Below, piece by piece: positions 41,283 through 46,262 of a stretch of DNA of 55,079 bases (position 1 is the first letter of the stretch; each line of letters begins with the position of its first letter). The stretch lies in the NCBI GenBank assembly GCA_937139415.1, contig CAKZPS010000037.1, positions 1 to 55,079 of the forward strand, in the 5' to 3' direction. A program made the position numbers and the translations under genes. The notes under the pieces were generated by a model. It had not been told where the DNA came from. It did no database searches and saw only the letters and a program-made list of their open reading frames with translations. The stretch comes from an uncultured bacterium. GTDB lineage: Bacteria; Atribacterota; Atribacteria; Atribacterales; Caldatribacteriaceae.

Positions 41283-43712
41283 TCAGATATTCACCTCCTC
41301 GCGAAGGAGGCGGCGAAACTTGATCATCTCCCCGTCGAGGTATACTTCGATAACGTCATGCGGTTGAAAAGTTCCACGAATGAGTTCACCCGAAAGGGGG
41401 CTTTCAATTTCACGCTGAATTAACCTCTTCAAAGGACGAGCACCAAAATCAGGGTCATAACCTCTTTCGGCTAAATACTCACGTACTTCTTCGCTGAGCA
41501 CGAGATCCATGTTTTGTTCTCGCAAACGATCTCTTAAGCGAAGGACGAGGAGATCAACAATCTTTTTCATCTCTTCCCTCTTGAGGGGGAGGAAAACGAT
41601 GATTTCATCGATCCGGTTAATGAATTCAGGTTTCAGCCGAGTGTGCACTTCGACGAGTACTTTCTGTTTCACCCTCTCTAATTCACTTTTCTCTTCTCCC
41701 GTAACGCCTCGGAAAAGATGACTCCCCAAATTTGAAGTCATGATAATCACCGTGTTCCTAAAATCAACGGTTCTCCCTTGGCCATCGGTGAGACGACCGT
41801 CATCCAAAACTTGCAAGAGGAGATTGAAGACATCGGGGTGCGCTTTCTCGATTTCATCGAAGAGAATAACCTGATACGGCCTTCTCCTCACTACTTCGGT
41901 CAATTGCCCACCCTCTTCATACCCCACGTATCCCGGTGGAGCACCGATCAAACGAGCGACAGAATGCTTCTCCATATACTCTGACATATCGATACGGAGG
42001 AGAGCGTCTTCCTCACCAAAGAGAAACTCGGCTAAGGCTTTGGCCAATTCAGTCTTACCAACCCCGGTCGGGCCAAGGAAGAGGAAAGAACCGATGGGTT
42101 TTTTCCGTTCACTGATCCCGGCTCGGGAACGACGAATCGCTTCGGCTATGGCTCGTACCGCTTCTTCTTGATCCACGATACGCCGATGGAGCTCTTCTTC
42201 CATACGGAGCAATTTTTCTCGCTCTTCTCCCAGCAATTTGGTCACCGGTATACCTGTCCAATGGGAGACCACTTCCGCAATGTCCTCCTCAGTAACCACC
42301 TCGCTGAGCTGTCTCTGGCGCATCCACCTTTCTTTCTCTTCTTGATACTTCTTTTGCAATATTTCCGCTTCATCACGGAGCTGAGCCGCTTTTTCGTACT
42401 GTTGTGCTTGCACCGCTGCCATTCCTTCTTTGGCTAACTCTTGCAACCTCTTCTCCATTTCTCGGATCTCACTGGGAATACTCTCCATTTCGATCCTCTT
42501 CTTACTGGCAGCTTCATCCATGAGATCAATCGCCTTGTCCGGCAAAAACCGCTCGGTAATGTATTTATTAGCCAATTCACACGCAGCACAAATGGCCTGA
42601 TCACTGATTTTTACCCGATGGTGTGCTTCGTACTTGTCGCGCAAACCCCGCAAGATTTCTTGGGTTTCCTCTACGGTCGGTTCATTCACAAACACAGATT
42701 GGAATCGTCGTTCCAAGGCAGGATCTTTCTCAATGTACTTCCGATACTCATCGAGGGTAGTCGCCCCAATGCACCGCAAATCTCCTCGTGCCAAAGCCGG
42801 CTTGAGAAGATTGGCCGCGTCAATCGCTCCCTCCGCTGCCCCTGCACCAACTACGGTATGGAGTTCATCGATGAAGAGAATCGCTTTTCCTTCCGATTTC
42901 TGTACTTCTTCGAGCACTGCCTTCAAGCGTTCTTCAAACTCTCCCCGAAACTTCGCGCCGGCCAGGATTGCTCCCATGTCAAGGGCGATAACCCGCTTAT
43001 TCTTCAAATTCTCCGGAACATCGCCCCGGATAATTTTTTGCGCCAATCCCTCCACAATAGCGGTCTTTCCCACTCCCGGGTCTCCGATGAGTACCGGGTT
43101 ATTCTTGGTCCGACGGCTGAGAATCTGCACCACCCGCTTAATTTCCATTTCCCTCCCGATCACCGGATCGAGCTTTCCTTCCCGCGCGAGCTGGGTGAGG
43201 TCCCGCCCGTATTTCTCTAAGGCCATATACTTCCCTTCGGCATAAGGATCGTCTACCCTGCGTTTCCCCCGAATTTCCTGTAAAGCCCGATAAACTTTCT
43301 CTACATCGATACCGTGAGAGCGTAAAATACGATGACTCACTCCTCCCTCTTCACGTACAATGGCTATCAAGAGATGCTCCACGCCCACATAGGCATCTTT
43401 GAGCCTCTTCGCCTCTTCCTCGGCGCCGTCGAGCACCGATTTAGCCCGGGGAGTGAGGTAAATCTGGATCTCTTGTCCTCCTTGGTAATACACCTGAGGA
43501 AAACGACTTAAAGCCCCTTCAAGTTCTTTTTGAAGCGCAAGAGGCTGAACATCGCACCGCTCAATGATTTGTCCCGCTAATCCCTCTTTTTGGCGTAAAA
43601 GCGCCAATAATAAATGCTCAACGTCTAACTGATTGTGATGATACTCTAATAATAAATCTTGTGCTAAGCTAATAGCTTCCTTCGCCTTTTCGGTAAATTG
43701 TTCAAATTTCAT
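41283..43712 (-). CDS. clpC: Clp ATPase ClpC (HSP100)
   Basis: 809 residues. Domains in order: double Clp-N repeat ([21 protein letters not shown]), AAA1 with Walker [10 protein letters not shown], a middle region with a UVR motif ([17 protein letters not shown]) and AAA2 with GPTGVGKTE. The short middle region and UVR motif mark ClpC rather than ClpB. ClpC unfolds proteins for ClpP and, in some bacteria, disaggregates with adaptor help. The ATG overlaps the hspR stop (ATGA). It closes the hsp20-dnaJ-hspR-clpC operon. A ClpP gene is not in the window. Confidence 0.94.
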
Positions 43713-44047
43713 TCTTTGTTCACCTCTCTTTCGGCACGAGCGTGACCAATTAAAGTTTGCAACTGATCACTCAAACACCATTCGGTTTTCTCCTTCTCGG
43801 CAATGAGTGCTTCAATCTGCTCGGTTAATTTAAAAATAACCTCTACACCGGCTAAATTGACTCCCATATCCTGCGTCAACATTCGAATCTTAGTAATTTT
43901 TCGCACTTCCTCTTCACCATAAAAACGAACCCCACCCCTCCCTCGCGCTGGTTTGAGCAAACCGGCACGTTCATAGTAACGGAGAGTCTGAGGATGGACA
44001 CCGGTTATCTCTGCCACCTGGGTAATCGTCAATTTTTTCTGTTTCAT
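43709..44047 (-). CDS. hspR: MerR-family heat-shock repressor HspR
   Basis: 112 residues from the ATG at 44047, preceded by GGGAGGATAACGCC. Winged helix-turn-helix: [26 protein letters not shown], then a conserved [11 protein letters not shown] wing and a short coiled coil ([21 protein letters not shown]). HspR represses chaperone operons, often with DnaK as co-repressor, and binds HAIR inverted repeats. It lies inside the operon it presumably controls, between dnaJ and clpC. Confidence 0.88.
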
Positions 44048-44061
44048 GGCGTTATCCTCCC

Positions 44062-45123
44062 TCACGCGCTCAAAAGATGTTGACGAGGGTTCTCTTTGCG
44101 AAGAGAAGAAAGTTCTTCCAGTAACTTCCTCTCCCTTTCCGTTAATCCCTTGGGAATCACCACTTGAACACGAACCAATTGATCACCTTTTCCCTCTCCT
44201 CCTATTTTGGGAAAGCCAAGCCCTCGCAAACGAAAAACGGTGCCACTCTGCGTTTCAGGTGGGATACGCATTTTCGCTCTTCCTGTGAGAACCGGTACCT
44301 CTATTTCGGTTCCTAAGGCTGCTTCGGTAATGGTCACGGGAAGCTCTAAAAGCACGTTGTCTCCCTCGCGTTTAAAGAATGGGTGTGGTTTGACGCGCAC
44401 CAAGAGATAAAAATCTTTTCCTCCCATCATTCCCGGAATACGGAGCTTCGTTTTATCGGCTACGCCAGGGGGAATATTCACATTGACCACCTTTGAATGT
44501 CTCTCCACCCCTTTCCCCCGACACGTCTTGCATACTTCTTTATTTCCGCTATGACCAGTCCCACCACAGCGAGAACATATTTCCTCATACTCTAAGCGAA
44601 CGTTGCGACTGGTCCCGCGAAAACTCTCTTCGAAAGAAATCTCTATCTCTGCGTTTACCTCGGGAGCAGTCTCTCGATGCATGGTTCTTTCCCGACCGCG
44701 ATTATAAAACCCAAAGTCAGTAGTAGCATGGCGAGTTGTTCGCTGAGCCCCGCGCAAGAGATCCCCAAAAAAAGTTTTGAAGAAATCGCTAAAATCACCA
44801 AACTCAAATTCGGTATCAAAAGTGGTGGTGTAAGGAGAAGAACTTCCATACTTGCGATAAAAGTCTTGCCAAAATTCTTCGGTATTCTGCCGGCCGTAAC
44901 TACTCCATGCCGTTCCCAACTCATCATAGCGCTTTCTCTTCTCCGGATCACTCAAAACCTCGTAGGCTTCGTTAATTTCTTTAAATTTTCGTTCTGCTTC
45001 TTTATCCTGGGGATTCAAATCCGGATGATACTTTCGAGCTAAGCGACGATACGCTTTTTTAATTTCTCTTTCATCAGCATTTCGTTCTACTCCAAGAATT
45101 TTGTAATAATCTTTAAATTCCAT
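44062..45123 (-). CDS. dnaJ: DnaJ-family co-chaperone with half zinc-finger
   Basis: 353 residues. J domain with HPD at 33-35, then a Gly-poor, aromatic-rich linker (about 75-145). The cysteine-rich segment has only two CxxCxGxG repeats (Cys183/186 and 198/201) in place of four, so a single zinc site remains. Two C-terminal substrate-binding domains follow ([36 protein letters not shown]). This is not a typical full-length DnaJ and is shorter than the usual 370-390. It would still stimulate DnaK. It lies between hsp20 and hspR, and no dnaK or grpE gene is beside it. Confidence 0.9.
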
Positions 45124-45174: not shown

Positions 45175-45609
45175 TCATCCTTCCTGAACGAGAACTTTTT
45201 TGGTTTTCACTTCCTCAAACTTAGGAAGATGAACTTCTAACACCCCATTCTTATATGTTGCCACCACTCTTTCAACGTCAATGGGAATCCTCACCACAAA
45301 AGAACGTTTGAAGGGACCAAAAATTCTCTCTTTCCGCAAAAAACTCCCCTGCGCATCGCTACTCTTCCTCTCCCCACTGATCACCAAGCGATCCTCGGAA
45401 ACGGTGATGTCGATTTCTTTTTGGTCCATTCCCGGTAAGTCAAAATAGAAGACCACTTCCTTCTCTTTTTCTACCACATCAACTCGAGGAGTCCATTCTC
45501 CCTCTTCTCTCTTTCCCTCCGTAAAAGGGAGATTTTCCTCCAGAGTACGAATGATACCTTCCTGCAATTCCGCTAAATCCCGCCAGGGGTTCCAACGTTG
45601 ATAAGCCAT
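45175..45609 (-). CDS. hsp20: Small heat-shock protein (Hsp20/alpha-crystallin)
   Basis: 144 residues. It starts MAYQRWNPWRDLAELQEGI, the family N-terminus. The alpha-crystallin domain spans about 45-135 with PRVDVVEKEKEVVFYFDLPGM and the conserved ATYKNGVLEVHLPK end. Holdase that binds unfolding proteins. ATG start with AAGGAGG about 6 bases upstream. It is the first gene of the heat-shock operon, behind a consensus promoter with a palindromic spacer. Confidence 0.95.
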   Translation of the reverse strand: MAYQRWNPWRDLAELQEGIIRTLEENLPFTEGKREEGEWTPRVDVVEKEKEVVFYFDLPGMDQKEIDITVSEDRLVISGERKSSDAQGSFLRKERIFGPFKRSFVVRIPIDVERVVATYKNGVLEVHLPKFEEVKTKKVLVQEG

Positions 45610-45650
45610 CGAATGAACCTCCTTTTTACCTTCTTTGACATTTCAATGAC

Positions 45651-45694
45651 ATTATAAAGAGGTATCCTCTTTTTGTCAATAATTGTCAAAGAGG
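45651..45694 (-). promoter_or_regulatory. Consensus promoter with palindromic operator for the heat-shock operon
   Basis: On the minus strand, TTGACA (45679-45674) and TATAAT (45656-45651) are separated by 17 bases. That spacer contains AAAGAGG-ATA-CCTCTTT (45672-45656), so a symmetric protein could block the promoter. A third half-site lies at 45694-45688, and a second TTGACA (45689-45684) is just upstream. The sequence is not the textbook HAIR box (CTTGAGT-N7-ACTCAAG) but is placed where HspR or another repressor would bind. Confidence 0.8.
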
Positions 45695-45710: not shown

Positions 45711-46262
45711 TTACAATTCTAACTGGGGAGCAATGTGTTGCATCGCCTGCAGCGCGATGGTCAGAAACTCCTCTACCGATAACCTCAAAAGAGAGCACTT
45801 TTTGATTTGCTCACGAGATGCTCCACGGGCAAAACCCTTCTCTTTGAAGCGTGAGAGGAGAAAAGGTACTTGAAGGGCCTGCAAGGAACGATCTCTATGC
45901 ACCAAAACACAAGCGATGATGAAACCACTCGTCGGATCAACGGCAAAAAGAGCTACCGCCATTTTTCCATTGGGTGCAAATCCGGTCAGTTCATTATGGG
46001 AACGTACCGCATCAACAAGACACGGTGAAAACCCCACTTCTTCAAGATATTGAGCACTGAGAATTCCATGCAAGGTAGGAGCATCCTTGGTTTCCTCGTA
46101 ATCCAAATCATGGAGAAGACCAGCTAAAGCCCATTCTTCCTCATCTTCACCAAAAAAGCGGGCTAAAGCCCGCATAACGGCTTCACACGCTAAACTATGT
46201 TTCAACAAATTTGGCGTTTTCAAGTGCTTCCCAAGGAAAGCCAGAGCCTCGTCCCGGGTCAT
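45711..46262 (-). CDS. HD-domain (HDIG-type) hydrolase
   Basis: 183 residues. HD domain with LLKHSLACEAVMRALA, GLLHDLDYEETKD, TLHGILSAQYL and RSHNELTG providing the metal-binding His/Asp set. Resembles small HDIG proteins of thermophiles with unknown nucleotide or phosphate substrates. Located between the LysM endopeptidase gene and the heat-shock promoter, with 8 bases or so after the former. A GTG one codon upstream is an alternative start. Confidence 0.82.
   Translation of the reverse strand: MTRDEALAFLGKHLKTPNLLKHSLACEAVMRALARFFGEDEEEWALAGLLHDLDYEETKDAPTLHGILSAQYLEEVGFSPCLVDAVRSHNELTGFAPNGKMAVALFAVDPTSGFIIACVLVHRDRSLQALQVPFLLSRFKEKGFARGASREQIKKCSLLRLSVEEFLTIALQAMQHIAPQLEL

Follow-up and report, generated by a model that had tools for sequence, protein, structure and literature searches.

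The window, by which is meant the whole 55,079-nucleotide stretch of DNA that was analyzed, comes from an uncultured bacterium of the family Caldatribacteriaceae (Atribacterota). It carries a heat-shock operon on its minus strand, with the genes in the order given by an earlier note on this DNA, hsp20-dnaJ-hspR-clp. The minus strand before hsp20 reads CCTCTTTGACAATTATTGACAAAAAGAGGATACCTCTTTATAATGTCATTGAAATGTCAAAGAAGGTAAAAAGGAGGTTCATTCG, followed by the ATG of hsp20. The perfect TTGACA-17-TATAAT promoter described in that note is there, a sigma-70-type promoter with a 12/12 match on the minus strand (TTGACA at 45679-45674, 17 nucleotides, TATAAT at 45656-45651). Between the hexamers, at 45656-45672, lies a perfect palindrome, AAAGAGG-N3-CCTCTTT. 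It was said to fill the spacer exactly, which is off by one: of its own 17 bases, 16 lie within the 17-nucleotide spacer and the last doubles as the opening T of the -10 hexamer. AAAGAGG/CCTCTTT recurs at 45688-45694, and a further TTGACA is found at 45689-45684. These had been listed as a third half-site and a second TTGACA; both are present, the half-site overlapping a conserved TTTGACA-ATT-ATTGACA and the TTGACA forming part of it. The features are as follows.

41283 to 43712, minus strand: Clp ATPase of the clpC/clpB type (Clp_N, AAA_2 and ClpB_D2-small; 1170.6 bits with the ClpB model, cut-off 1232.1)
43709 to 44047, minus strand: hspR, MerR family (PF13411, 68.8 bits; best NCBIfam model HspR NF047375, 94 bits, cut-off 105)
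44062 to 45123, minus strand: dnaJ (PF00226 and PF01556)
45175 to 45609, minus strand: hsp20 (PF00011, 70.7 bits)
45618 to 45623, minus strand: Shine-Dalgarno AGGAGG of hsp20, read directly from the sequence
45624 to 45640, minus strand: candidate downstream CtsR-type box TGTCAAA-GAA-GGTAAAA (13/15, with P about 0.005 from 200 shuffles; also picked up independently by the genome scan)
45651 to 45656, minus strand: -10 hexamer TATAAT (12/12 promoter match; identical in 10 other family promoters)
45656 to 45672, no strand assigned: palindrome AAAGAGG-N3-CCTCTTT, probably not functional (absent in 19 other orthologous promoters; one exact genome copy)
45674 to 45679, minus strand: -35 hexamer TTGACA (12/12 promoter match; identical in 10 other family promoters)
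45674 to 45690, plus strand: candidate upstream CtsR-type box TGTCAAT-AAT-TGTCAAA (minus-strand reading TTTGACA-ATT-ATTGACA; matches the published consensus at 12/15; overlaps the -35 hexamer)

A conspicuous palindrome seen in a single genome can draw attention away from the conserved sites that flank it. The region upstream of hsp20 was compared in 20 genomes of the order, including that of the window: 11 from the window's family (f1), 1 from f2, and 8 from f3. Loci L164, L165, and L166, which gave no hsp20, were left out, as was L044 (Anaerolineae). The relatives compared belong to other genera, and the 60 relatives returned include none of the same genus. The other 19 orthologous promoters, 10 of them in the same family, lack the palindrome, and over 223 loci it occurs solely in two, both of which cover the window's own site. 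The genome (2.3 Mb, 76 contigs) holds no second exact copy, and none is seen before its ctsR, grpE-dnaK, or second hsp20, dnaK being one of the places where the earlier note had suggested looking. Three copies with one mismatch exist, two inside open reading frames (ORFs) of 365 and 510 amino acids and one in no ORF of at least 100 amino acids.

The shape of the palindrome can also be compared with chance. Its sequence occurs once in the window, and shuffles, with one mismatch allowed, predict 0.06 matches. Counting every perfect palindrome that has 7-bp arms and a loop of 0-8, the window contains 60, compared to 37 on average over 10 shuffles. When this promoter is simulated with the alignment-column frequencies seen in 10 members of the family, arms of at least 7 with loops of 0-6 arise in 0.5%. 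Arms of 7 bp are thus unusual for one named promoter; they are less unusual if the promoter was selected by eye from a 55-kb window. Across the 11 family promoters, the -35 and -10 hexamers and the two A's after the -35 are invariant, and the palindrome core is the least conserved stretch. The palindrome is probably a local accident, private to the window's genome, in a spacer that varies freely between the boxes.

What is conserved lies on either side: TTTGAC-N5-TTGACA over the -35 hexamer, and TGTCAAA-GAA-GGTAAAA between the putative start site and the Shine-Dalgarno sequence. The available text of PMC12634643 gives the CtsR box consensus as A/GGTCAAA-NAN-A/GGTCAAA, and the conserved flanks look like an inverted pair of such boxes. 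Those of the window are imperfect (13/15 downstream, 12/15 upstream). The downstream box, GTCAAA-GAA-GGTAAAA or a variant in the orthologues, scores 12-15/15 in all 20 promoters, with shuffles reaching about 10; it is weakest in L043 (P 0.035) and L045 (P 0.05) and perfect, at 15/15, in L118 and L163. The upstream reverse box scores 11-13/15 throughout f1 and f2 (12 promoters) and stays at background, 9-10/15, in all 8 of f3. The earlier note's suggestion of a second regulator at this promoter finds support, through the predicted CtsR-type boxes rather than the palindrome.

In 8 of the 11 family promoters, TTTGAC and TTGACA (the -35 hexamer) are 10 bp apart, and in the others (L036, L041, and L042) a third heptad lies between them. 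In these three and in L037, the best reverse box is found upstream of the -35 hexamer rather than over it. The three, which belong to genus g3, have three TGAC heptads at 10-bp steps (TTTGAC, CTGAC, TTGAC) upstream of hsp20; the extra heptad suggests an additional CtsR half-box.

A gene for the repressor is at hand. PF05848 (CtsR) matches in the window's genome with 111.6 bits, and PF17727 matches as well. The model scores over its cut-off in 24 of the 25 genomes of the order, the exception (G016) being 78% complete, and in none of 25 other genomes of the phylum or 11 further genomes. The search may miss true cases, since among 14 control genomes it matched Lactococcus lactis alone and gave no match in Bacillus subtilis, which has CtsR. 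The single solved structure matched by the protein is itself a CtsR (PDB 3h0d); the alignment keeps PSQINYV, with a glycine loop of RGGSGY compared to RGGGGY. No NCBIfam model matched the protein. The cluster in the window's genome comprises ctsR, a UVR-motif protein (McsA-like), an ATP:guanido phosphotransferase (McsB-like), and clpC, followed by a gene we take to be radA. The McsB-like protein reaches at most 104.5 bits in NCBIfam, far under the cut-offs. HrcA was detected in none of the 25 genomes of the order.

The same boxes can be looked for elsewhere in the genome. The consensus with up to two mismatches (at least 13/15) gives 27 matches, compared to 24 for the reversed control, which is no enrichment, so the case for a regulon rests on where the matches fall and on their conservation. 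Twenty of the 27 are inside ORFs of at least 120 amino acids. Of the 7 non-coding ones, 5 precede heat-shock operons: ctsR, grpE-dnaK (two), the second hsp20, and the window's operon. Promoters of ctsR (scored at 10 loci; 24 genomes have CtsR) have a forward box of 12-14/15, and at these loci no reverse box stands out (best 8-10/15); in L125, the best match is at another place than in its neighbors.

At grpE, a reverse box of 13/15 lies over the -35 hexamer in all 22 genomes in which the gene was found (25 of the order were searched), and a forward box of the AGTC(G/T)AA type follows the -10 hexamer in the same arrangement in most of them, L185, L186, and L188 being exceptions. TTGAC-N5-TTGAC occurs before grpE in 22/22 genomes of the order versus 0/16 phylum members without detected CtsR, in which grpE may not head its operon; the best box in those 16 scores 12/15, compared to 13/15 in the order. 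For these negatives, 17 genomes were searched and 16 used: full flanks were confirmed by length in 13 and assumed for the cut loci L240, L244, and L245, and L236 is also short, at more than 3 kb. For L186 and L196, the search covered a longer stretch. G016 has the grpE box, and CtsR was not detected in this 78% complete genome. The groES promoters of 21 genomes (L200-L220) share a recurrent inverted repeat of their own, e.g., TGTCAAAATGACA or TTGCCAAATTGGCA, plus a CtsR-like TTGACC-TTG-ATTGAT upstream. In one f1 genome, G000, groES (PF00166) was not detected, compared to its presence in 21 of the 25 genomes of the order, and groEL is on contig C46 without groES just upstream; the missing gene may be an assembly gap.

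The other repressor to consider is HspR, encoded in the operon itself. The protein was detected in 17 of the 25 genomes of the order and in 11 of the 12 of the window's family. That of the window scores below the HspR model's cut-off (94 bits, cut-off 105), and the genes around it fit an HspR. Its known operator, HAIR, is CTTGAGT-N7-ACTCAAG in the available text of PMC7464140. The palindrome is not a HAIR site, as the earlier note had recognized, for both half-sites and spacing differ. In six f3 promoters, the -35 hexamer and spacer form CTTGACA-N7-TATCAAG, which fits all 10 positions of CTTGA-N11-TCAAG; in one of these (L167), no hspR was found in the genome, and the contig ends near dnaJ. 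The f2 promoter fits 9/10, and the f3 genomes G018 and G021, without detected HspR, fit 6/10. At 55 hspR loci, mostly from Chloroflexota, there are 10 exact sites compared to 0.4 expected, one of them at L045 (Atribacteria), and because of this excess the CTTGACA-N7-TATCAAG type of site, a relative of HAIR, is a likely HspR operator there.

In the window's family, this site is gone. The best fit to CTTGA-N11-TCAAG in the 11 f1 promoters is a chance-like 6-7/10 (6/10 in the window). The stricter CTTGAYA-N7-TRTCAAG occurs once each in 7 of the 25 genomes, six times at this operon and once (G021) inside a 314-amino-acid ORF, and f1 lacks it altogether (12 genomes, G000-G011). The aligned HspR rows of f1, f2, f3, and Chloroflexota share an identical recognition region, HPQTLRYYE; three rows labeled Act were excluded for their poor HspR scores. 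Since HspR is detected, its recognition region is unchanged, and the site is found in 0/12 genomes, the family appears to have kept HspR without a HAIR-type operator, and we infer that the site was lost here rather than gained elsewhere. The window's genome has five exact CTTGA-N11-TCAAG sites, the fifth at C62:140222. Of the four examined, two are in ORFs of 582 and 526 amino acids and two only in weak ORFs of 100 and 158 amino acids. The latter two may be intergenic; that of L160 sits 12 bases from a 265-amino-acid ORF.

One could consider the palindrome as a newly evolved operator, bound by an HspR of changed specificity or by another repressor, that replaced the lost HAIR site between the boxes. 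It sits where sister families have the HAIR-type site, its perfect arms are a rare outcome for this promoter in simulation (about 0.5%), and the family's HspR is left without CTTGAYA-N7-TRTCAAG in any of the 12 genomes. However, the palindrome is missing from all 10 other family promoters, its exact sequence occurs only once in the genome, two of its three near copies are inside the ORFs noted above, and its half-sites are 3 bp apart, compared to 7 in HAIR. HspR itself keeps HPQTLRYYE, and no residue obviously singles out the protein of the window, so a new operator of this kind is unlikely. A more elaborate version, in which HspR was retargeted in the Caldatribacterium family after losing its HAIR site, with the palindrome as its new site in the window's genus, nested between two CtsR boxes where HspR and CtsR compete or cooperate, seems to us a rather poor prospect. 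The lineage-specific HspR operator proposed in the earlier note finds no support: the palindrome is absent at the 19 other orthologous operons examined and is not seen before ctsR, grpE-dnaK, and the second hsp20, and relatives that do have the HAIR-type site carry an HspR with almost the same helix-turn-helix.

Two further explanations do without a repressor at one or the other element. The downstream conserved element adjoins the Shine-Dalgarno sequence and is rich in A and G, and could instead belong to the 5' leader with a role in translation or in the mRNA. Such a role would not account for the same 10-bp-period repeat reversed over the -35 hexamer in the window, for perfect consensus matches in L118 and L163, for similar boxes before ctsR and grpE, or for a repeat at grpE that tracks the presence of CtsR, and this explanation is very improbable. 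The palindrome could also be the transcription terminator of the upstream HD-domain gene (stop at 45711), as it lies between that gene and hsp20 and forms a plus-strand hairpin followed by T's. The assigned genes around it are all on the minus strand, though, where the hairpin has no T run, and a terminator scan of both strands gave no match overlapping 45651-45694; a terminator is hardly credible here.

The best reading, which we hold to be likely, is CtsR control in Atribacterota combined with a lineage-specific loss of the HspR site. The hsp20-dnaJ-hspR-clp operon would have a strong promoter of the housekeeping type, kept closed at normal temperature by the repressor CtsR. CtsR would block RNA polymerase by occupying the inverted pair of boxes, of which the first covers the -35 hexamer and the second follows closely on the start site. 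On heating, CtsR would be released with the help of the McsA/McsB/Clp machinery, whose genes neighbor ctsR, and the operon would turn on; the heat release is taken from known CtsR behavior as described in the available text of PMC12634643. In sister families, a HAIR-type operator within this promoter is probably bound by HspR, which the operon encodes, and the window's family no longer has that site. The boxes with their conservation, the CtsR cluster, and the distribution of HAIR-type sites are seen in the sequences themselves; the start site, the binding, the repression, and the heat release are inferred.

Such a circuit resembles the CtsR regulon of Gram-positive bacteria, with the same ctsR-mcsA-mcsB-clpC cluster and repressor family and, going by the available text of PMC12634643, heptad repeats that match the consensus and lie, in clp and hsp genes, at the -35 hexamer and close to the start site. 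It differs in its occurrence in Atribacterota, in boxes that also precede grpE-dnaK and hsp20, in the inverted pair around the core promoter, and in that HrcA was not detected. With the HspR/HAIR systems of Streptomyces, Campylobacter, and Helicobacter, it shares a MerR-family HspR in a dnaJ-clp operon, and the CTTGACA-N7-TATCAAG of the sister families is close to the HAIR sequence in the available text of PMC7464140; the window's promoter, however, has no HAIR-type site (6/10, background). As in dual-repressor heat-shock control (HrcA with CtsR; HspR with HrcA), two stress repressors appear to share one promoter in the sister families, but the pair here would be CtsR and HspR. A literature search combining Atribacter with CtsR found no paper, and control by CtsR plus HspR in Atribacterota is probably undescribed so far.

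If true, this reading predicts a heat-shock circuit for an order of a largely uncultured phylum, in which CtsR and McsA/McsB, with no HrcA, would control both dnaK and the clp genes. In six f3 genomes, the sole exact CTTGAYA-N7-TRTCAAG site is that of HspR's own operon, and with this site gone in 12/12 genomes of the Caldatribacterium family, the question is what the HspR of that family targets. The operon's Clp ATPase (41283-43712) also seems to be without the loop GIGFG carried by the ClpC of the ctsR cluster, which we take to be a ClpP-docking loop of the IGF/VGF type, and it is possible that the operon's enzyme is a protease-independent disaggregase.
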